From Ochromonas danica (Eukaryota > Sar > Chrysophyceae > Chromulinales > Chromulinaceae), in NCBI GenBank assembly GCA_015146655.1, contig VKHL01000021.1, forward strand, positions 208,934-272,933: a DNA stretch of 64,000 nt, in the 5' to 3' direction. Of this stretch, positions 33,387 to 60,673 are shown piece by piece; position 1 is the first letter of the stretch; the number at the start of each line of letters is the position of its first letter. The notes beneath the pieces were generated by a model, which was not told where the DNA came from, did no database searches, and saw only the letters and a program-made list of their open reading frames with translations. The position numbers were made by a program, and so were the translations under genes.

Positions 33387-36137
33387 ATGAATGAGTTTTC
33401 TATGAAATCACGTTGTCGATCTATACTTGACTTAGAAAGTCAAGTGTTTCATAAAGATGAAAAAGAAGAGAAATTTGATATTCATCCTTATTGGTTAGTT
33501 TTCATTGAAAACAGTCAACAAGAACAATTCAACCGAACTATCCAACAAGAGTCTTCACGATCTGCTTATGCTCTCTTAGCATGTCTAGATCTCTTTCTCT
33601 GTATCTTTGAAGTAATTCCTTTAGCTCTTATTCATCATCAAGGAAGAAAAAGTGATATTATTAATTATCTCCCTGCTATTCTGTCTTTTGTATTATTTCT
33701 CTATTCGATGTATTTATTTAAAGAAAGGAAAGTCAGAGTTGCTAGTCAAGGATTGACTAGGAAAAAGCAGGTTATTCATCAATATGTCAGGCGGAATGAG
33801 CAAATCTTTGCCGTTCTCACCACCACAGCGATGGGTTTGATCGTTCTGTTGCACTCCTTTATGACAAATTGTCACAGTGATAACCTCTTTGGTAGCTCAC
33901 TTTGTGAGCATTCAATAAGACATCCTATGATTGTACAATATGGATTTGCAGTCTTAGTGGTGACTCCTTTATTTTTGGAGGGAGCCTTGACTTCATTGAT
34001 CTGGCCAGTAGTTTGTCTGTGTTGGCTTATCGCTATCGTCTTCTTGCTCATTATTGTGAGTCTAAATGAACAACCAGAATCATTTTTCTTTCTCTTTATC
34101 CTTGTTCTCTATCTTATTGCTGCCATGTATTTTCGACGATACAAACAGCTTGCTACTTATCGTATTCTACACTCTTCCGTTCAGGAGAAAGATCGTCATA
34201 TGAGACAAGATTTAGAGTGTACACGTCGTAAGATCGTAGAATCTGATGCTGAAGAATGGCGTTTTATTATTGCTAATATGGCTCATGATGTACAAACGGT
34301 GAGTTTTCTTTATTAGAATATCATGCGAAAATGTCTCTCATGAGGATTGCTTTTTGTTCATGTTTTGCTGTAGCCTTTGGCAGCGTTTCGTACAGGTTGT
34401 GATTATATCTCTTCCGTTTTAACAGATCTAGCTGGATCGACTTCAGCGCCGTCATTAGACATGAGCAGGTTGAATGAAGACGTTCTCTCTGGCCTGGCGT
34501 CTCTGCAGAGCCTGCAACACACTTGCTCCTATATGCAAATGATCATTAGCCGAGTCCTGGATTATGCAAAAGCTAGTCGTGGCTTGCAATTAGTTCCTCA
34601 TGCAGAAGCGGTGGATTTGTTAGATTGTCTCGCAGCACCGCTGGCATGTTTGAGAGATCTGCAGTCTAAATTAGCTCTCGTCGTCGAGCCTCTTCCCCCT
34701 AATGTTCGCAGAATAGTGCGAACAGATCCAAAGTGGTTACAAGAATCTATTCTGTGCTTAGTTAGCAATGCTGTCAAATACTCCATGAATAAACCCGCCA
34801 CTTTGCGTATCTATCTGGTGCAAAGAGCTACTGTTGATGGTAACGAGGACTCAATTAGCGAGATGAAACCTCAAGAATATGAGTTCTCAACTAGTCGAGT
34901 TAGAAAGGCACCATCAGTTGACTTTGAATATCATCTTTGCTTTGAAGTGGAAGATAATGGAGTGGGAGTGCGAGAGGAAATGCAAGAGAAGATATTCGAG
35001 CCTTTTTCTCAAGCTCAACGAACCACTGGAGGAATGGGATTGGGTCTGTTCTCTCTGTCAGTTCGCATGAAAGCCTTGAAAGGCTCTTGTGGAGTCACAT
35101 CACGTCGTGATGGAAAAAATGGTGCAAGGTTTTGGTTTGCTATTCCATACTATCCCGTGGAACTCAATTCATATCGATCGCTCTCGGCTACATCATCCAA
35201 TCACAATATAATAAGGAGGAGCAGCACTGCAGTCTCAATAGGACCTCAAAACACACCTCAGGTTGCATCTTCTCCTCCAACATACGATCATTCATTCGAT
35301 AACGACAACAACAACAAGAGTGATGAGATTCAACAGTCGGAAGAGACGGCTGCGTTAATCGCTCAGAGAGAAGCTGAACAGAATATCCGCTGCTCCACTC
35401 CAATAATATCTGAGAAGGTTCCAGTTGATAATTCGAAGTCTGTTGCTTCTTCGCCAGTAGTGACTTCACTGATCTCATCTCCAGCTGTTGCAGAGGCTGC
35501 TGAGAGTAAGATAGCTTCACCATCATCACCGCGAAGCAAAGTCGATGAGCCTCAGCGACAATGGCGAGTGCTAATAGTAGATGATTCCTTACCAATCTTA
35601 AAGATGGCTCGTAGACTATTAGAGAAGGATGGACACGTTGCAGTCACAGCAGAGAATGGATACGAAGCTTTGATCGCATTGAGTCAAGACAATTTTGATA
35701 TTCTTGTCATGGATCTTCAAATGCCTATCATGGATGGATTTGAAACTGTACGACGTATACGCTTCCTTGAGAAGCAGATCAAGGAAGGATCTTCCGCAAT
35801 GCTTAGGCTTCCTGAGAAAACTTCTTCTCCTACCGATCCTTCCTTAGGCCCTGTTGCTCCTATAATTGATGCGGCATTTTCAATAACTCATCAATCAAGT
35901 GAATCTGCGCATGGATCATTTTGCGTAGATGTTGAGAAAGTTATGGAGAAGTTATACAATAGTTTACAGAAGCAACGGGCCAATGACTTCGTTATAATAG
36001 GATGTTCAGCTAACGGCGACGAAGGGACTATTCAAGAAGCATATAATGCAGGCATTGATGCTTTCATCCCCAAGCCAATCAATCTCAAGGTGTTCAAGGA
36101 AGTCACTGCTGGGATATTGGCCAAGAGATTCAAATGA
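33387..36137 (+). CDS. Membrane hybrid histidine kinase
   Basis: Exons 33387-34298 and 34374-36137, phase 0, encode 891 aa; the intron falls exactly inside the H-box. Six or so membrane helices lie at residues ~55-255. The HisKA H-box reads NMAHDVQT-PLAAF with phospho-acceptor H300. The HATPase part shows the N box LVSNAVKYS, G1 EVEDNGVG and G2 GGMGLGLFSLS. After a ~150-residue Ser-rich linker comes a receiver domain with VDDS, D751 (LVMDLQMPIMDG) and the lysine of IPKPI. About 68 extra residues sit between the D751 strand and the CSANG strand. It should autophosphorylate on His and pass phosphate to its own Asp. The signal sensed is unknown. Divergent from the kelch gene. Confidence 0.85.
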
Positions 36138-39201: not shown

Positions 39202-39249
39202 TTGCGTGGGAGCTAATAATACTGATACGATTGCGTGGGGAGGTAATAA
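39202..39249 (+). promoter_or_regulatory. Two GCGTGGGAG motifs in divergent promoter
   Basis: TTGCGTGGGAGCTAATAATA (39202-39221) and TTGCGTGGGGAGGTAATAAT (39231-39250) lie in the same orientation 29 bp apart, between the transporter start (39004, minus) and LSM5 (39296, plus). These are the clearest copies of the motif shared with other promoters in the window. Confidence 0.45.
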
Positions 39250-44012: not shown

Positions 44013-46169
44013 TCATCGCTTGGCATTATTGGCCTTGCTATTCAATGAAGTCGTAGAGGCAGTATTAGGTGAGCTGAGACTATTAGCCGCCGTTGTTGCA
44101 GGTGTGATGGCAGGAGTTAAATCTTTGCCCATCAATTTCTGCACTTTTTCATTACGATTATACTGGTCCCAAATATGAGCAATGCCGCTCTCGACACGAA
44201 CAATGTTCGGTGAAGTGAAGTTCCTAATAATACACACAAACCCACATGAGATTATTTGCACATCAACTCAATAACAGTAAGACTGTATTACCAATTAACA
44301 AAGTACTTCTGCAGTTCCGGATTGGGCAGCTCAGTGAGCCATTCTTCCTTGTGATGTTCTCGCATCAATGTTTCGAAGTCTGGGTATGGCACGAGTTCAT
44401 CTAAGAAACGTGGATGATCTGGTTTATAAGGTGGTTCGATATGTTTCGTTTCCAAACTATCCCTGTGATGGGGGCAAACATCATGAGAGACGTGTCAGAC
44501 TACTCAATATGATGGAAACAGCGCAGAGTCACTTTGGGAGGGCTTACCAGTCAATACTCTTGAAGAAGATATGAGATTTGATATTCTTGGCACCATTCAC
44601 GCCAGCTCCAAGTCGTGTCTTGGGATTGACATCTAAGAGCTTACTAATCAAATCCTTAGCTTCAGGACTGATAAAAGATGGGAAGGGAACCTCTTGAAAG
44701 AGGATAGCATACTCAGGACTATCACAATGTTCTCGTACTAACTGATTCATTGTTGTTGCCATCTCCACAAAGGTATTAAAGTTATCATCAGTGAATGGAC
44801 GATATCCTGTGAGTAACTTGAACATGGTTACACCTAAGGACCACCAATCCACAGCATAGGTATAGCCTGTCTTTTCATAAGAGGCTTGAGACAACATGAT
44901 CACCATCTCAGGCGCCATATAGCCAAAGGTTCCCATGATTGACAGTTTACGCTTTGGCTTAGGTGCTCTTCCTCCATTATTCAACTCTTCCTCTTCCTTT
45001 TCCTCACCAGCAACACTGTAGTAGTTCTTATGCCCACCAGCATTGCCATCCTCCTTGCCGAAATGCTGCGAGAATAATGGGATCGCACCACTATAATCTT
45101 GCTGCTTGCCTAGTGTGAGACCATATTCATCTGCCACACCTCCTAAATCAACGAGTTGTATGTGTCCATCTTCATGTAAGAGGACGTTGTTGGGCTTCAA
45201 ATCACGATACATCAACCCCATTTGATGCAAATAAGACAATGCCAAGACAATCTCAGCGACATAAAAGCGAACACGGTCTTCATTCAATCTCTCTTCAGGG
45301 GCCTTGTTCAAGGCTCGTTGTAAGTCACCCGCTGTAGCTAAACCCAACACCATAATTGCTAAACTTTCCGTCTGGAAAGAATAATCCAAATTCACTATAA
45401 AAGGATGTTGACAAGTTGCAAACGCTTGTTTTTCAAAGTCAGCACGGTAAGGATCATCAGCAAAGCATTCTAATAAGCCTTTCTTTGTTTGTAACTTCAT
45501 CGCATAATGTCGTCCTGTAGACTTCTTACGACAATGTACAACAAAACCAAATCCTCCTTCTCCTAACTTGGAAAAGTATTCGAAATCATTTAATTTGACA
45601 TTATTATATCTTTCTTGTAATTGCTTGGTTAAGGTAAGATATTCATTTGTTTGTTTGAAAGGTAGGTAGACATTGTAATATAATCCCGTGAAACATTTTG
45701 TTTGTACTTTGTCAAAGAATCGACTGGATATAACATGTGGATTTTCTCTAGAAGCATCTAATTCACTCTTATATCTTTCACGTTCTGCCATTTCAATATC
45801 ACCAATAACTAAAGCAGCATCAGGTTTAATATATTTATTATAAATTGTCATTGCTGTAGTACGACGAAAACCTTCAGAAGGGATTTTCTTAAATTCTAAG
45901 ATATCCATCCAACAAAGGAATAAATCCTGTGCCTTAGCAACTTCTGTAACATATTTGAAGATAACCGGCTGTGCGTGCGGGTCATCCAAGAGAGTCCGCA
46001 GTTCTAACTGCCCGGGGTCGCTATTCTTAGTGAGAGTTCCATCTGCTTCAAACTTCTTCCGTGCTTCGACAGAAGATGGAAGAATCTTCCATTCTACAGG
46101 TTGTGGAAGTTCAGAAATTTGATCATTATCATCTTCAGGTGAGATGGGTTTGGATGGATGACATCCCAT
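44013..46169 (-). CDS. RGS-domain AGC protein kinase, GRK-like
   Basis: Exons 44548-46169, 44292-44462 and 44013-44223, each joined in phase 2, encode 667 aa. The N-terminus MGCHPSK carries G2 and C3, a likely myristoylation/palmitoylation pair. An RGS domain spans about 55-170, with the kinase domain from ~196: glycine loop GEGGFGFV, K225 (YAMK), catalytic YRDLKPNN with D323, DLG at 341-343 and APE at 419-421. The activation segment carries about 50 extra residues (acidic, Gly/Asn/Lys-rich). An AGC C-terminal tail follows (WNFTSPN and PF-type segments). The layout is that of GPCR kinases. It would phosphorylate activated receptors or similar membrane targets. Its tail is Thr/Ala/Ser-rich. 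Confidence 0.8.
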
Positions 46170-48839: not shown

Positions 48840-48857
48840 ATGCGCGGGAGCTGTTAG
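48840..48857 (+). promoter_or_regulatory. GCGCGGGAGCTGTT motif in divergent promoter
   Basis: ATGCGCGGGAGCTGTTAG lies between the RRP45 start (48755, minus) and the first phospholipase B-like gene (49017, plus). The GGGAGCTGTT core is identical to the two sites at 51113 and 51135 upstream of the second phospholipase copy. Confidence 0.4.
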
Positions 48858-48993
48858 AGATTTCAGCAGCAATCATCACATGATGAAGTAGAAGTCGAAG
48901 TCCAGGCTGGCTTGTTGAGAACTGTCTCCTCCACCCTCAATGGCACAAATATATTACTAGGTTACACCTTCTAGCTACACTCTGAAAAAGAGC

Positions 48994-50861
48994 GAGAGAA
49001 AAACAAGAAAATCGATATGTTGTTTCTGTCCTTCTTCATCACCTTGCTCATTGTTGTCCAGACCATTCTTGCCTATGAGAACAATCAAGAATATTCCGTG
49101 CGCTGCCTTGGCCACTTTTCGAATTGTGAGCTCGTGTCTGGTAAAATCTACCACCCCAATAGCCATGCATTTGGTACTTATTCAGATGAGGTGAATAAGG
49201 ATGGGTGGGGAAAGCTGTGGGTCCACGGAGATGCCACACTGGAAGGATGGTATCAAGCAGGATTCTTGGAAGGCGCGTTGACGAGTCAGCGCATTTACCA
49301 ACACTACATCTCATGGTATGACTACCAGTTCGGGTCCACTCCTCCTTCTGCAGGCACCATCCAGTTCATGTATGATCAGTATGACTTCGCGAAGCGTCTG
49401 TCGGTGAGAGGAGAGAAAGAAGACAGCACAGATCTTTATTACTCCACTCTTCGAAAGCTCTTGGCTCAGTTCCAAGGTATCTTGGATGGTCAGAACTATG
49501 CGGCTGTGAAGTCAGAGGAGAAAGTGGATTTGTTGGGTTTGCTGCTTCTGGAGGCTGCGGGTGATTTGTATGACATCATCCCTGCGACTGATAAGGATGG
49601 TTTCAAGCTGCACATTGGCAAACTATCTGTCGAGGAGTTCTTCGATCGTTGGCATAAGCAGATCTCTTGTTCTGCTTTGATCAAGTTGTCAGACAATGGT
49701 CAAGATGTCTTTGCCGGCCATACAACTTGGTCAACATATCAAAATATGCTGCGAACTTACAAACATTACGACTTAGATGCTGGACTCTTTCAGTCCTCTC
49801 ATTCTTCCAAGCCAGGAGAGCTCTACAGTAAGGATGACTTCTATGTTTTGCCCAGAAATAAGCTGTTGGTGATGGAAACCACAAATGGTGTGATGGATGC
49901 CGAGATCTACAAGCTTGTTACGCCTGAATCCTTGCTCACTTGGCAACGCCTTCCCGTGGTGAATGCGTTGGCAGGTTCGGGTAAGGAGTGGGTGGACTTG
50001 GTGAGTCGCTATAACTCAGGCACCTATGCCAACCAATGGATGGTGGTGGATATGAAGCTGTTCACACCAGGCAAAGGAGTGGCAAAGAAGGACTTTTTGT
50101 GGATCGTGGAATTAGCACCAGGACTGGCTGTGGCCAATGATGTGACCCAAGTGATGTTGAAACAAGGAGGATATTGGCCGAGCTACAATATTCCCTATGA
50201 TCGCAAGGTCTTTGTCTACACAGGCTTCCAGCAAGCGTACGATACGTATGGCGACCAGTACTCGTATTCCAACTCCACCCGTGCGCTGATGTTTGCTCGA
50301 GATGAAGGCAAGGTTCAGTCGGTGGATTCGATGAAGAAGATTCTGCGCTACAACGATTATCTGAACGATCCTCTGAGTGCTGGCAATGCCGCGGCTGCCA
50401 TCTCTTCACGCTATGACCTTCGCACGACGAGTGCCAAAACCTATGGCGGAGTCGACACGAAAGTAACATCTTATTCTCGCATGATGGGTCGTTTGGGGCC
50501 TGGTGAAGGGTATTCTTCAGCCGAATGCGGTCCCACTCATGATAACCTGTCTCCTTTCCAATGGTCCACTTCTGGTTTCGACCAACAGGTGCATGTTGGT
50601 CAGCCTGACGTCTTCAACTTCGGCTTCGTTGAGATGCACTTTGGACAACATTAAATATGATCCCTTTGGCGAATAGCACAGCATGTGTAACAGAGCTTTC
50701 GAATGACTATTGTATTACTGGGAATGCAAGGCCTCATCTTCTCTTGTTGGATTAGGTATTACATCGTAGTTTACAATGTGTAAGAGTAAACAGCAAACAG
50801 CTTTCTGTGAGATTGTTATGGTGGGGAGGTTTGTTCTGGTTGGTGTTCAAGGGGAAGTGAT
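48994..50861 (+). repeat. Left copy of a tandem duplication
   Basis: Pairs with 51248-53115 at a constant offset of 2254 bp. The two appear identical except for a cluster of differences at about 49645-49825. The unit spans the whole phospholipase B-like gene plus about 207 bp of 3' flank. Upstream of 48994 the copies show only partial likeness. Confidence 0.9.
49017..50654 (+). CDS. Phospholipase B-like protein, copy 1
   Basis: Intronless, 545 aa. The signal peptide is about residues 1-19 (LFLSFFITLLIVVQTILA). PLBD/laminin-A-family signature: QISCSALIKLSDN with C218 as the expected N-terminal nucleophile after self-cleavage, then VFAGHTTWSTYQNMLRTYK. The family also shows SGTYANQWMVVDMK and the C-terminal GPTHDNLSPFQWSTSGF, all present. 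These are lysosomal or secreted amidase-fold enzymes that deacylate phospholipids or N-acyl compounds; true substrates remain debated. It differs from copy 2 only within about residues 210-270. Mixed N-glycosylation sites are present. It is divergent from RRP45. Confidence 0.88.
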   Translation: MLFLSFFITLLIVVQTILAYENNQEYSVRCLGHFSNCELVSGKIYHPNSHAFGTYSDEVNKDGWGKLWVHGDATLEGWYQAGFLEGALTSQRIYQHYISWYDYQFGSTPPSAGTIQFMYDQYDFAKRLSVRGEKEDSTDLYYSTLRKLLAQFQGILDGQNYAAVKSEEKVDLLGLLLLEAAGDLYDIIPATDKDGFKLHIGKLSVEEFFDRWHKQISCSALIKLSDNGQDVFAGHTTWSTYQNMLRTYKHYDLDAGLFQSSHSSKPGELYSKDDFYVLPRNKLLVMETTNGVMDAEIYKLVTPESLLTWQRLPVVNALAGSGKEWVDLVSRYNSGTYANQWMVVDMKLFTPGKGVAKKDFLWIVELAPGLAVANDVTQVMLKQGGYWPSYNIPYDRKVFVYTGFQQAYDTYGDQYSYSNSTRALMFARDEGKVQSVDSMKKILRYNDYLNDPLSAGNAAAAISSRYDLRTTSAKTYGGVDTKVTSYSRMMGRLGPGEGYSSAECGPTHDNLSPFQWSTSGFDQQVHVGQPDVFNFGFVEMHFGQH

Positions 50862-51270
50862 TGATTCCTCATGGTCTGGAATAATTTCGTCGATGTTTTG
50901 TTGTCACCAAGTCCGGTTCACTTTTAATCGACTCAACAAGGAATATTATTTCTATACGCGACAGGATTTTATCCAAATATTACCAATTAGATTAGATTAG
51001 GTTTATACCAGAAATGTACTAGTAGCATTGGAGCATTAGAACTCAATCCCAGGCAAAACCAAAACATAACCTTGAAAACGGAAAACAGCATAGACTATTG
51101 TTTGTTGTTATTTTGCGTGGGAGCTGTTCTTCTCATGCGTGGGAGCTGTTCCCACCCGCTGTGATTCCAACAACCACAACAAATTCACGCCATCCTAAAC
51201 CTTAACCAATTATACTACTACACCTTCTAGATACCCACTGAAGCTTAGAGAGAAAAACAAGAAAATCGAT
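50655..51270. other. Spacer between phospholipase copies
   Basis: The first ~207 bp (to 50861) are repeated after copy 2. From 50862 the sequence is unique. It contains the two GCGTGGGAGCTGTT sites and leads into copy 2. A short open frame at 50776-51000 has no recognisable features. Confidence 0.6.
51113..51150 (+). promoter_or_regulatory. Two GCGTGGGAGCTGTT motifs upstream of copy 2
   Basis: TTGCGTGGGAGCTGTT (51113-51128) and ATGCGTGGGAGCTGTT (51135-51150) sit 22 bp apart, about 120-160 bp before the second phospholipase gene. Copy 1 has one related site (48840) at a similar distance, so this element predates or accompanies the duplication. Confidence 0.5.
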
Positions 51271-53115
51271 ATGTTGTTTCTGTCCTTCTTCATCACCTTG
51301 CTCATTGTTGTCCAGACCATTCTTGCCTATGAGAACAATCAAGAATATTCCGTGCGCTGCCTTGGCCACTTTTCGAATTGTGAGCTCGTGTCTGGTAAAA
51401 TCTACCACCCCAATAGCCATGCATTTGGTACTTATTCAGATGAGGTGAATAAGGATGGGTGGGGAAAGCTGTGGGTCCACGGAGATGCCACACTGGAAGG
51501 ATGGTATCAAGCAGGATTCTTGGAAGGCGCGTTGACGAGTCAGCGCATTTACCAACACTACATCTCATGGTATGACTACCAGTTCGGGTCCACTCCTCCT
51601 TCTGCAGGCACCATCCAGTTCATGTATGATCAGTATGACTTCGCGAAGCGTCTGTCGGTGAGAGGAGAGAAAGAAGACAGCACAGATCTTTATTACTCCA
51701 CTCTTCGAAAGCTCTTGGCTCAGTTCCAAGGTATCTTGGATGGTCAGAACTATGCGGCTGTGAAGTCAGAGGAGAAAGTGGATTTGTTGGGTTTGCTGCT
51801 TCTGGAGGCTGCGGGTGATTTGTATGACATCATCCCTGCGACTGATAAGGATGGTTTCAAGCTGCACATTGGCAAACTATCTGTCGAGGAGTTCTTTGAT
51901 CGTTGGCATAAGCAGATCTCTTGTTCTGCTTTGATCAAGTTGTCAGACAATCATCAAGATGTCTTTGCGGGCCATACCAGTTGGACCAGCTATCAAAATA
52001 TGCTTCGTGTCTACAAGAACTATGACTTAGATGCTGGACTTTACCAGTCCTCTCACTCTTCCAAACCTGGCGTGATCTACAGTAAGGATGACTTCTATGT
52101 TTTGCCCAGAAATAAGCTGTTGGTGATGGAAACCACAAATGGTGTGATGGATGCCGAGATCTACAAGCTTGTTACGCCTGAATCCTTGCTCACTTGGCAA
52201 CGCCTTCCCGTGGTGAATGCGTTGGCAGGTTCGGGTAAGGAGTGGGTGGACTTGGTGAGTCGCTATAACTCAGGCACCTATGCCAACCAATGGATGGTGG
52301 TGGATATGAAGCTGTTCACACCAGGCAAAGGAGTGGCAAAGAAGGACTTTTTGTGGATCGTGGAATTAGCACCAGGACTGGCTGTGGCCAATGATGTGAC
52401 CCAAGTGATGTTGAAACAAGGAGGATATTGGCCGAGCTACAATATTCCCTATGATCGCAAGGTCTTTGTCTACACAGGCTTCCAGCAAGCGTACGATACG
52501 TATGGCGACCAGTACTCGTATTCCAACTCCACCCGTGCGCTGATGTTTGCTCGAGATGAAGGCAAGGTTCAGTCGGTGGATTCGATGAAGAAGATTCTGC
52601 GCTACAACGATTATCTGAACGATCCTCTGAGTGCTGGCAATGCCGCGGCTGCCATCTCTTCACGCTATGACCTTCGCACGACGAGTGCCAAAACCTATGG
52701 CGGAGTCGACACGAAAGTAACATCTTATTCTCGCATGATGGGTCGTTTGGGGCCTGGTGAAGGGTATTCTTCAGCCGAATGCGGTCCCACTCATGATAAC
52801 CTGTCTCCTTTCCAATGGTCCACTTCTGGTTTCGACCAACAGGTGCATGTTGGTCAGCCTGACGTCTTCAACTTCGGCTTCGTTGAGATGCACTTTGGAC
52901 AACATTAAATATGATCCCTTTGGCGAATAGCACAGCATGTGTAACAGAGCTTTCGAATGACTATTGTATTACTGGGAATGCAAGGCCTCATCTTCTCTTG
53001 TTGGATTAGGTATTACATCGTAGTTTACAATGTGTAAGAGTAAACAGCAAACAGCTTTCTGTGAGATTGTTATGGTGGGGAGGTTTGTTCTGGTTGGTGT
53101 TCAAGGGGAAGTGAT
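51248..53115 (+). repeat. Right copy of a tandem duplication
   Basis: Match to 48994-50861, offset 2254 bp. The last shared bases are AAGTGAT at 53109-53115, after which the flanks differ completely. That edge lies inside the last coding exon of the minus-strand exonuclease gene (53070-53212). Confidence 0.9.
51271..52908 (+). CDS. Phospholipase B-like protein, copy 2
   Basis: Intronless, 545 aa, with the same signal peptide, nucleophile C218 and C-terminus as copy 1. In the divergent island it reads DNHQDVFAGHTSWTSYQNML, where copy 1 has DNGQDVFAGHTTWSTYQNML. Further changes are R-V-YKNYDL for R-T-YKHYDL, GLYQSS for GLFQSS, and PGVIYSK for PGELYSK. Family motifs are intact, so both copies look functional. 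The presence of silent as well as replacement changes, and their clustering, suggest the copies were homogenised elsewhere by gene conversion. Convergent with, and slightly overlapping in its 3' flank, the exonuclease gene. Confidence 0.88.
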   Translation: MLFLSFFITLLIVVQTILAYENNQEYSVRCLGHFSNCELVSGKIYHPNSHAFGTYSDEVNKDGWGKLWVHGDATLEGWYQAGFLEGALTSQRIYQHYISWYDYQFGSTPPSAGTIQFMYDQYDFAKRLSVRGEKEDSTDLYYSTLRKLLAQFQGILDGQNYAAVKSEEKVDLLGLLLLEAAGDLYDIIPATDKDGFKLHIGKLSVEEFFDRWHKQISCSALIKLSDNHQDVFAGHTSWTSYQNMLRVYKNYDLDAGLYQSSHSSKPGVIYSKDDFYVLPRNKLLVMETTNGVMDAEIYKLVTPESLLTWQRLPVVNALAGSGKEWVDLVSRYNSGTYANQWMVVDMKLFTPGKGVAKKDFLWIVELAPGLAVANDVTQVMLKQGGYWPSYNIPYDRKVFVYTGFQQAYDTYGDQYSYSNSTRALMFARDEGKVQSVDSMKKILRYNDYLNDPLSAGNAAAAISSRYDLRTTSAKTYGGVDTKVTSYSRMMGRLGPGEGYSSAECGPTHDNLSPFQWSTSGFDQQVHVGQPDVFNFGFVEMHFGQH

Positions 53116-56057
53116 GACTGAGGCTTGAAGGATATGAACACACAGCCATTAGCTGCTCGTTCAGCTGCTTTAAGAAGATCAGCCTCATCTTCGATAGCAT
53201 TCCATTCTGAACCTATCGAGAGGAATGAAGGTTGAGTGATGGGTCATATAGAAAAGGTTGAGAGGGAGGAAAGTGAAAGTGATGCACTTACTGAGTTTTA
53301 CTTGTTCCTGTCCTTTCATCATCGGCAAGGAGATTTTCTGATCTCTCTTGGCCATAGCCCATTTGTTGCGAATCTTCTTAGCCACGAGATGACGAAGTGG
53401 TATCAACGAATCTTGAGTCAACACCACCATTGCACTATCAGGTGGTAAAGAGGCATAGAGTTCATCGAGGCTTCTGTCCAACTCTAAGATTGACAACGAT
53501 CCACCATCTGCAGCTAATTTACGTCTTTTCACGTAAGGCTCATCCACCCCACTCTCCAATAAAGATGAAGGTGTTCGATTATAAAGTTGTAGATCACACC
53601 AAACAACCCGTTGTAATTGCTCCAAACCAGGTTCACTATTCTTTACCTCCTCATTCTTGAGCTTGACTGTTTTCATCATTTCTTCCCAGCTGTGATAAGA
53701 GCAGTTTGAACATGACAGAGAAGATGAACGAGATTTATGGTCCATAGAAGGGTTCTCTAATGCAAACTTTGCTTGACTGTCAGCACGATAACCAAAGCCA
53801 TCTGCTTCCCATAATGGCAGAGGAGCAGGAAGACAACAACTATGAACCTCAAACTGCAAACAAGAAGAATGTTCTTTACATGATTGCCAACAATGTTCAT
53901 GTAAAGGATATCGTGGTTGTTGATAATCTCTTTCTCCCAATTGCCATGAGAGTTGTTGATGTTCTTTCGCATTGTCATGATTGTTACTACCAGAGACATC
54001 ACCATTGCTTGAAGAGATCACCATCAACTCGTTGGCTTTTACCAGAGCTAACTCTAATGCTGCTAATGCATCTTGTGCGCTATCATGACCATTCTCTGAG
54101 TCTTGTATCTCTCTTCCAAGTATATCCTTCGATAGTTTCTTCAAGGCATATTTATAAGGCAAGCCATTGTGATGAGGATAGAGTGCTGCCACATCAATAA
54201 CATGATCATGGACAATTTGTAAGATTTTCAGATCAGCATCTAAAGAGTGACCTACTAGAATAGTCTCCTTGCTGATAATCAATCGAAGCATTTCTTGGAC
54301 ATCGCGGAGAGTTGTGCTAATCTTATCTAATGCTTCTTCTGTCACGCCTGAGAATTCAGTGTGATAGTCAATAATCTCTCGATCAGGCTTTACTAAAGTA
54401 TCCAAGAGTACACCATAAACAGGATGTACTACCGTAATACGGGTAAGCTCTAATCCATTCTTAGTGGAGCACATCTCACAATCAAGTGCAGCAATTTTGA
54501 GAGGAAGAGAGAGTTCAGATAGACGAGAGAAGAAATGAACAAAAGCTTGCTGACAGAGTTTGGTATGAATAGCTGCTAGAATATCTCCATTGTCTTCCTC
54601 ATCCAGTTCCTCTCCATCCTCCAGTTCTATCTTGTTGGCAGCAGAGTGTTGCTGTGTCTGTTGGTCATGAAACCAGCCCTTGCGAGAAGTCACCCAGCAA
54701 CGAGTGTGTTCTCCATCTATCATATATCCCATTAACTGCATTAGTTGTCGACTGAGCACAAGCTCCTCCAATCGATAGAAAGGAATAGTTTGATAACGTT
54801 GCATCACATCGTGTAGAATGGTTTCTGTTGTTGATTTGATCAACTCCTCCAGATCAACCTTTTGGTCAACACCATCTATGAGCTTGGACTGAGAAGTGTC
54901 ATCTTTCACTGAAGCGCCAACAACTCCATTGCCATTATTCCCTACTACACGTACAGATTTACCGTTTGTCTCGCTCTTTGCAATAGAGAGAGAAGGTACT
55001 GGATGAAGCATATTCAACGGAATCATGTTCTCCACTCTATCAACTATCTCCTCTCTCTCAAAGAGAGAGACATCGCCTCGATCCCAAATCAGCACGACTT
55101 GGTCAGTGGAGGGTATGACAGAGAAGAAGCCATTCTCCGCGATATCATGAGAGATGTACCACCCACAGACCTTCTTGTCTCCTTTTTCCACATTGGATAG
55201 AGAGCTAAAGCGAGGTTCCATGGAAGTGTGACTCTCTTTCAAGGCTTCCATGGTGGTCTCAATTATGCAATCGATCTCTGTCCAGACAGTCTTGTCTGGA
55301 ATCAAAGTGAGGCGACCACCACTATCTTTCTATAACATATGCATTCACTCAATACAGGGAAGAGGAAAGGTGTGACGAGGAAAGGGGTGTGACTAACCCG
55401 TACAGTGACAAGGAAGCGATGCAAAAGGTCTACAAGGCTGTGGCTGTGGAGATCCGCTTTTCCCCTTGGAATTAGAGGCCAGAGTAAGAACGAATTGAGC
55501 GGTTTGACATCGTTGTAGAACCACTCCTCATTGTAAGGGTTGCTTCTCTGTACGAGCAGGGAAGGCATGGAAGATGCCGTGCAGAGGAAGTGCCGCCGAC
55601 TGCCTCCTGCTGGCTGCTCTTCTTGCTGTGCGAGGTGAGCCTTCAACTCACTATGGTCCAGACCACTCACTGCAATGAGGTAGAGATGGTTGACCTTTCT
55701 CGCACTTGCTAAAGCGGCAGACTTCTTGCCAGACAGCAAGGAGGTGATGATTTCGCTCAGCAGATCTGCCTCCATACGACTATGAGAGATCCAATAGTTA
55801 AAGTCAAGGGGAAGAGATCCTTGATGTGGATAGACATTTCGCTGAATAGTCCAGTCATCAGGCAAACGTGTAGGATTGGTCAAAGTTCGCACTGATCTCT
55901 TCATTAATCTAAACATGAAGAACTGCCACGACTCCTCTCTGTTGATGGTCATCAACACAATGGAATCCATGGAATCCATCGTGTACTTCAGGGAGAGCGA
56001 AAGCTCATGACTCCACTCTGAGCCACATCTGTTAGGAGGCGATAGTGTCTCCCACAT
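53070..56057 (-). CDS. DEDDh RNA exonuclease, REXO-type
   Basis: Exons 55398-56057, 53292-55329 and 53070-53212 (phases 0 and 1) encode about 946 aa from the ATG at 56057 (MWETLSPPNRCG). The frame is open 32 codons further without an ATG, so an upstream exon is possible. The exonuclease core has ALDCEMC (D503, E505), VGHSLDADLKIL (D584), DVAALYPH and HDSAQDALAALEL (H635, D640): a full DEDDh set of the REX1/REXO1/REXO5 group, which trims structured RNA 3' ends. N-terminal ~480 residues hold an uncertain RNA-binding part. The C-terminal part has a Cys/His-rich stretch (CWQSCKEHSSCLQF) and an RRM-like end. The last 15 or so codons lie in the phospholipase duplication. Confidence 0.8.
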
Positions 56058-56250: not shown

Positions 56251-56414
56251 TCCTCCCCCAACAATCCCTCTGAAACAAGTCCAGAAGTGCATGAAATGAA
56301 GAATCCTGTGCTTGTAGTCGTCACGAATGGCGAGCATGTGGAGTACGACCATGTGTTTCTATTCTCCTAGGAGGTATTGTGTTGTCACAATTTAATTCCT
56401 TGTACCATAACAAG

Positions 56415-60673
<4,259 letters not shown>

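Follow-up and report, generated by a model that had tools for sequence, protein, structure and literature searches.

The 64-kb window, by which we mean the whole stretch of DNA that was analyzed, contains two tandem genes in the same orientation, each of 545 codons and offset from one another by 2254 bp, both of which are phospholipase B-like (PLBL). In a repeat search with a minimum length of 40 and an exact seed of 16, this pair was the single direct-repeat family reported in the window.

48994-50861, forward strand: repeat copy 1, composed of 23 bp upstream, the gene, and 207 bp downstream; identical to 51248-53115 outside the island described below
49017-50654, forward strand: copy 1 gene, 545 aa; Pfam PF04916 (E = 9.3e-142, profile positions 1-487 of 487); PDB 3fbx (E = 3.7e-76)
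50862-51247, no strand: spacer between the copies, 386 bp; a copy of neither outer flank, residual upstream similarity excepted
51248-53115, forward strand: repeat copy 2, offset by 2254 bp
51271-52908, forward strand: copy 2 gene, 545 aa, phospholipase B-like; Pfam PF04916 (E = 3.5e-142)

Both proteins matched the full PF04916 profile (1-487/487), scoring 473.5 bits (copy 1) and 475 bits (copy 2) against a cut-off of 27, and in the PDB both matched mouse PLBD2 and bovine PLBD1. Over the aligned parts only, copy 1 is 38% identical to mouse PLBD2 and 37% identical to bovine PLBD1. We assign both copies, on sequence evidence, to the PLBL Ntn hydrolases of the lysosomal type. A hydrophobic N terminus is visible in the sequence of these proteins. 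A two-sequence AlphaFold2 model had a mean pLDDT of 36.8 and was not usable for the alpha-beta-beta-alpha fold of the family or for identifying pocket-facing side chains. Within the window, a tRNA scan returned no genes and Rfam returned no families.

Several other features surround the pair; introns in neighboring genes, together with the kinds of genes present, suggest a eukaryotic source. On the reverse strand, 44544-46169 encodes a protein in which an RGS domain precedes a protein kinase domain. Farther upstream lies a pair of open reading frames (ORFs) at 33387-36137, the second of which combines histidine-kinase ATPase and response regulator domains; this arrangement suggests a sensor kinase of the hybrid type, and an intron may separate the two ORFs. 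On the other side, at 56379-60089, two ORFs in different frames with 57 bp between them resemble a single ABC transporter interrupted by a short intron; the domain scan, which covered the second ORF, matched it to ABC_tran and ABC_membrane. The identity of copy 2 ends about 70 bp (53116-53185) before the stop codon of a convergent ORF at 53185-55305 on the reverse strand.

When aligned base by base, as the initial annotation had proposed, the two copies match without gaps over 1868 bp (48994-50861 against 51248-53115) and differ at 28 positions, the first at 49643 and the last at 49821. This agrees with the earlier description of a near-perfect match over about 1.87 kb with roughly 30 changes in some 180 bp, which had been placed at 49645-49825. 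Outside 49643-49821 everything is identical in this one assembly, and the identity takes in the 23 bp that precede the ATG and the 207 bp that follow the stop codon. Were the 28 differences placed at random, the chance that all would fall inside 179 of the 1868 bp is approximately 1e-27. All but one of them (27/28) lie within an even shorter stretch.

49643, forward strand: lone silent change in codon 209 (TTC/TTT), separated from the island by 54 identical bases
49668-49670, forward strand: codon of the presumed nucleophile C218, inside the identical stretch and aligned with mouse C249
49698-49821, forward strand: diverged island of copy 1, 27 differences in 124 bp, codons 228-269
51952-52075, forward strand: diverged island of copy 2, at the same place with an offset of 2254

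The initial annotation had the island starting beside C218. Codons 210 to 227 contain no silent changes, compared to about 5.9 expected at the island's own silent divergence (Poisson P of ~0.003), and the island is therefore best drawn at 49698-49821, its dense part beginning ten codons past C218 rather than next to it. The GHTTW/GHTSW segment (codons 234 to 238) does lie inside the island, as was claimed, and silent and replacement changes are indeed mixed: among the 21 changed codons, 12 are silent and nine are replacing (G228H, T237S, S239T, T240S, T247V, H250N, F258Y, E268V, and L269I).

We estimated pS, dS, and dN by the Nei-Gojobori method, taking the island and the coding arms separately. 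Codons 228 to 269 gave a pS of 0.571 (15.5 of 27.2 silent sites), a dS of ~1.07, a dN of 0.126, and a dN/dS of 0.118; for codons 209 to 269 together, dS was 0.653 and dN was 0.084. The island dS is a rough estimate, drawn from only 27 silent sites, although the contrast between island and arms is still about hundredfold. The coding arms have no change at all at 135.7 plus 184.7 (~320) silent sites (upper 95% limit of ~0.9%, or 3/320). At a dN/dS of 0.118, each version of the island appears to be under constraint, and there is no sign of positive selection. We take these values to mean that the island is old, constrained divergence inside otherwise identical genes.

Part of this picture could be an effect of assembly. 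Near-identical arms may have been collapsed into one consensus that was then used twice, which would overstate their identity, or the island may have been joined to the wrong copy, and a collapsed repeat would also give exact identity over the 1840 unchanged or non-island positions. We regard such an effect as quite unlikely. Arms as diverged as the island would be expected to assemble apart, so that low divergence in the arms would be real regardless, and the unlike flanks argue against one gene having been placed twice. On the latter ground, placement of one gene twice by the assembler was set aside.

The flanks also bear on whether the pair is old or recent. To the left of the repeat, identity breaks at 48993/48994, yet the adjoining 60 bp still align between the copies with a local score of 21, a value reached by none of 1000 dinucleotide shuffles and by none of 6372 other 60-mers from the window. 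Beyond this segment the signal is weaker: from -60 to -160 the local score was reached by 3/1000 shuffles and the global score by 666/1000, and from -60 to -300 the corresponding counts were 14/1000 and 87/1000. Downstream of the repeat we found no homology between the copies, the local scores there being reached by 946/1000 and 524/1000 shuffles. Two short motifs occur in the same order before both genes.

48841-48855, forward strand: upstream motif TGCGCGGGAGCTGTT of copy 1, an exact match to TGCGYGGGAGCTGTT
48963-48974, forward strand: upstream motif TACACCTTCTAG of copy 1, in the residual homology beside the break of identity
51114-51150, forward strand: the first motif before copy 2, as two copies 22 bp apart (TGCGTGGGAGCTGTT twice)
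51219-51230, forward strand: upstream motif TACACCTTCTAG of copy 2, an exact match

Exact matches to TACACCTTCTAG occur at two sites in the window, one ahead of each gene, and exact matches to TGCGYGGGAGCTGTT occur at three, one ahead of copy 1 and two ahead of copy 2. The TGCGTGGGAGCTGTT/TGCGCGGGAGCTGTT motif is possibly a promoter element. A relative with two mismatches is present at 39203-39217.

From the ~60 bp of upstream signal, with its weaker continuation beyond, we favor the view that the duplication predates the identity of the arms. This step is weakest where the upstream motifs are concerned, since they could be promoter elements shared without homology. The 386-bp spacer, which is unlike either outer flank, speaks against a recent simple tandem duplication. 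Retroposition was set aside as well, as the right end has no poly(A) and similarity carries on upstream.

If the pair is old and the identity of its arms younger, conversion would follow. The best explanation, to which we give a probability of about 0.5, is that old tandem paralogs were homogenized by gene conversion and that one tract was skipped. Two old PLBL paralogs would have been homogenized across ~1.74 kb, an identical stretch that includes 230 noncoding bases, while a tract of ~124 bp shortly after the nucleophile escaped conversion and kept its old divergence. The promoter side just past the converted stretch would likewise have kept its old divergence. That conversion was the agent, and that it was recent, we infer from this arrangement; we further suppose that the tract was skipped through its own divergence, which would have blocked strand exchange, and not through selective protection. 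Conversion between genes that differ by ~22% is normally inefficient, and hence the arms would either have been kept similar throughout or have been converted in more than one event.

We examined whether an island of this kind can form neutrally in a toy model in which two copies evolve under mutation and conversion (30 settings with freely chosen parameters, 12 runs each). A snapshot was counted as island-like if a 200-bp stretch held at least 20 differences and the remainder no more than 2; snapshots of the same run are correlated. With a divergence stop on conversion, island-like snapshots appeared in five of 20 settings (65/868, 48/923, 35/914, 7/922, and 5/939), and none appeared in the other 15. 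With the stop turned off, there was 1 in 948 snapshots in one setting and none in the other nine. These counts show that a sharply bounded island can arise without selection if divergence blocks conversion, for some parameters only.

The initial annotation had offered two readings of the island, an old divergence that survived homogenization of the rest or a patch brought in from a third gene. Both survive, and the diverged yet recognizable upstream flank tips the balance toward the first. According to the second, conversion from a third, diverged paralog would have brought ~124 bp into one of two recent or recently homogenized copies. A single short tract would suffice for this, and several protists have 2 to 12 genes of the PLBL family (PMC8053727). 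Composition is also relevant here. In codon use, the copy 1 island scores higher than just 3 of 135 arm windows, and its GC content at third positions (GC3), 0.381, lies below that of all 135, whereas the copy 2 island is ordinary (codon use, 42/135 windows below; GC3 of 0.50, 33/135); the 135 windows overlap and are not independent, so that the atypicality of the copy 1 island is a hint.

An atypical copy 1 island fits either conversion of the arms from copy 2 to copy 1 or a third-gene patch in copy 1, which would make copy 1 the more likely recipient of such a patch. If the hint holds for the skipped-tract history, the arms would derive from copy 2 and copy 1 would have retained its own island. 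Polarity judged from mammalian residues is mixed, with the mouse or bovine residue present in copy 1 at five of the nine replaced sites and in copy 2 at three of nine, and the Pfam scores (473.5 versus 475 bits) leave it unsettled.

Searches for a donor returned none. In the 64-kb window, tblastn with copy 1 found the two copies and a 10-residue match (E = 9.3), and thus no third relative. Among public viral contigs, 15 and 19 pattern matches were obtained and none was confirmed by tblastn, and a 30-base exact pattern had no matches; a eukaryotic donor is not expected there. Public prokaryote contigs gave 5 and 131 pattern matches, again with none confirmed, which says little for a eukaryote. 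Although both sets of contigs are unlikely places for a eukaryotic donor, the window itself holds no third relative and the diverged upstream flank already indicates an old pair, and we consider a patch from a third gene unlikely.

The position of the island raised the further question of function. In mouse PLBD2, catalysis involves C249, H266, W269, T330, N432, and R463, with the polar groups S225, T238, N274, and T378 near the center (PMC2739207). In both copies, C218, H235, W238, T289, N391, and R422 align with the six catalytic residues, and the equivalents of the four polar groups, which are also the same in both copies, are A181, D194, N243, and T336; the alignment is loose near D194 and uncertain around 255-262. 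Both copies have their Pfam family and catalytic residues in common with mouse PLBD2 (3fbx, 3fgr) and bovine PLBD1 (4bwc). They differ in having no glycine immediately ahead of the nucleophile (KQISC), and in the alignment A181 and D194 stand at the places of mouse S225 and T238.

Selection might keep the island apart if each enzyme has its own substrates and alleles produced by conversion are eliminated. The island spans H235 to W238, corresponding to mouse H266 and W269, both of which act on the nucleophile, and it holds N243, the counterpart of the substrate-side N274; it has nine replacements in 42 codons, including T247V, E268V, and G228H; and a precedent exists in the divergence peak at opsin exon 5 (PMC3924837). 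Against this, the copies do not differ at any catalytic or near-substrate position named in the mouse protein, N243 included, dN/dS is 0.118, and a neutral stop of conversion can produce an island in our toy model. The replacements are mostly mild, three being T/S exchanges. Eight of the nine replaced columns differ between mouse PLBD2 and bovine PLBD1, compared to 18 of 33 unchanged columns, a tendency toward variable columns that is not significant (Fisher P of 0.12). Selective maintenance therefore appears very unlikely to us, and the two substrate preferences hinted at in the initial annotation find no support so far in the low dN/dS (0.12), the shared catalytic residues and N274 equivalent, or the mild replacements.

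A functional difference between the copies is possible but is not indicated. A natural loop exchange, in which the bodies are identical, a 42-codon pocket-lining segment alone sets two substrate preferences, and selection opposes ongoing conversion, would be a long shot. The natural substrate of the PLBL enzyme family is itself unsettled (PMC8053727 and PMC9140057). A pair that differs solely in the segment after the nucleophile would offer a clean comparison for what that segment does; otherwise, it is a further example of the way in which conversion leaves paralogs as mosaics of older and newer divergence.

Within the same protein family, Trypanosoma brucei p67 provides a parallel, as its two paralogs are described as essentially identical save for one segment. 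That segment is the transmembrane domain, compared to the region after the nucleophile here, and the term gene conversion has no occurrences in the part of the p67 paper available (PMC8053727). A literature search combining phospholipase B-like with gene conversion returned no paper titled on the subject. In other gene families, conversion has been reported to produce mosaics of high and low divergence, both in GOT1 from Tigriopus californicus, a copepod (PMC3728101), and in primate opsins (PMC3924837). For GOT1p1 and GOT1p2, several populations and alleles were compared (PMC3728101), whereas here there is one sequence per copy, a single island, and arms without differences. The opsins resemble the PLBL pair in that divergence peaks locally between paralogs that conversion otherwise keeps similar; their peak is explained by two known functional substitutions (PMC3924837), whereas the PLBL island comes without a known functional change. 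The PLBL pair combines low divergence over most of its length, noncoding sequence included, with a local peak, which is the pattern of a divergence island. Such islands in converted paralogs have already been published, and the PLBL pair would be another case.
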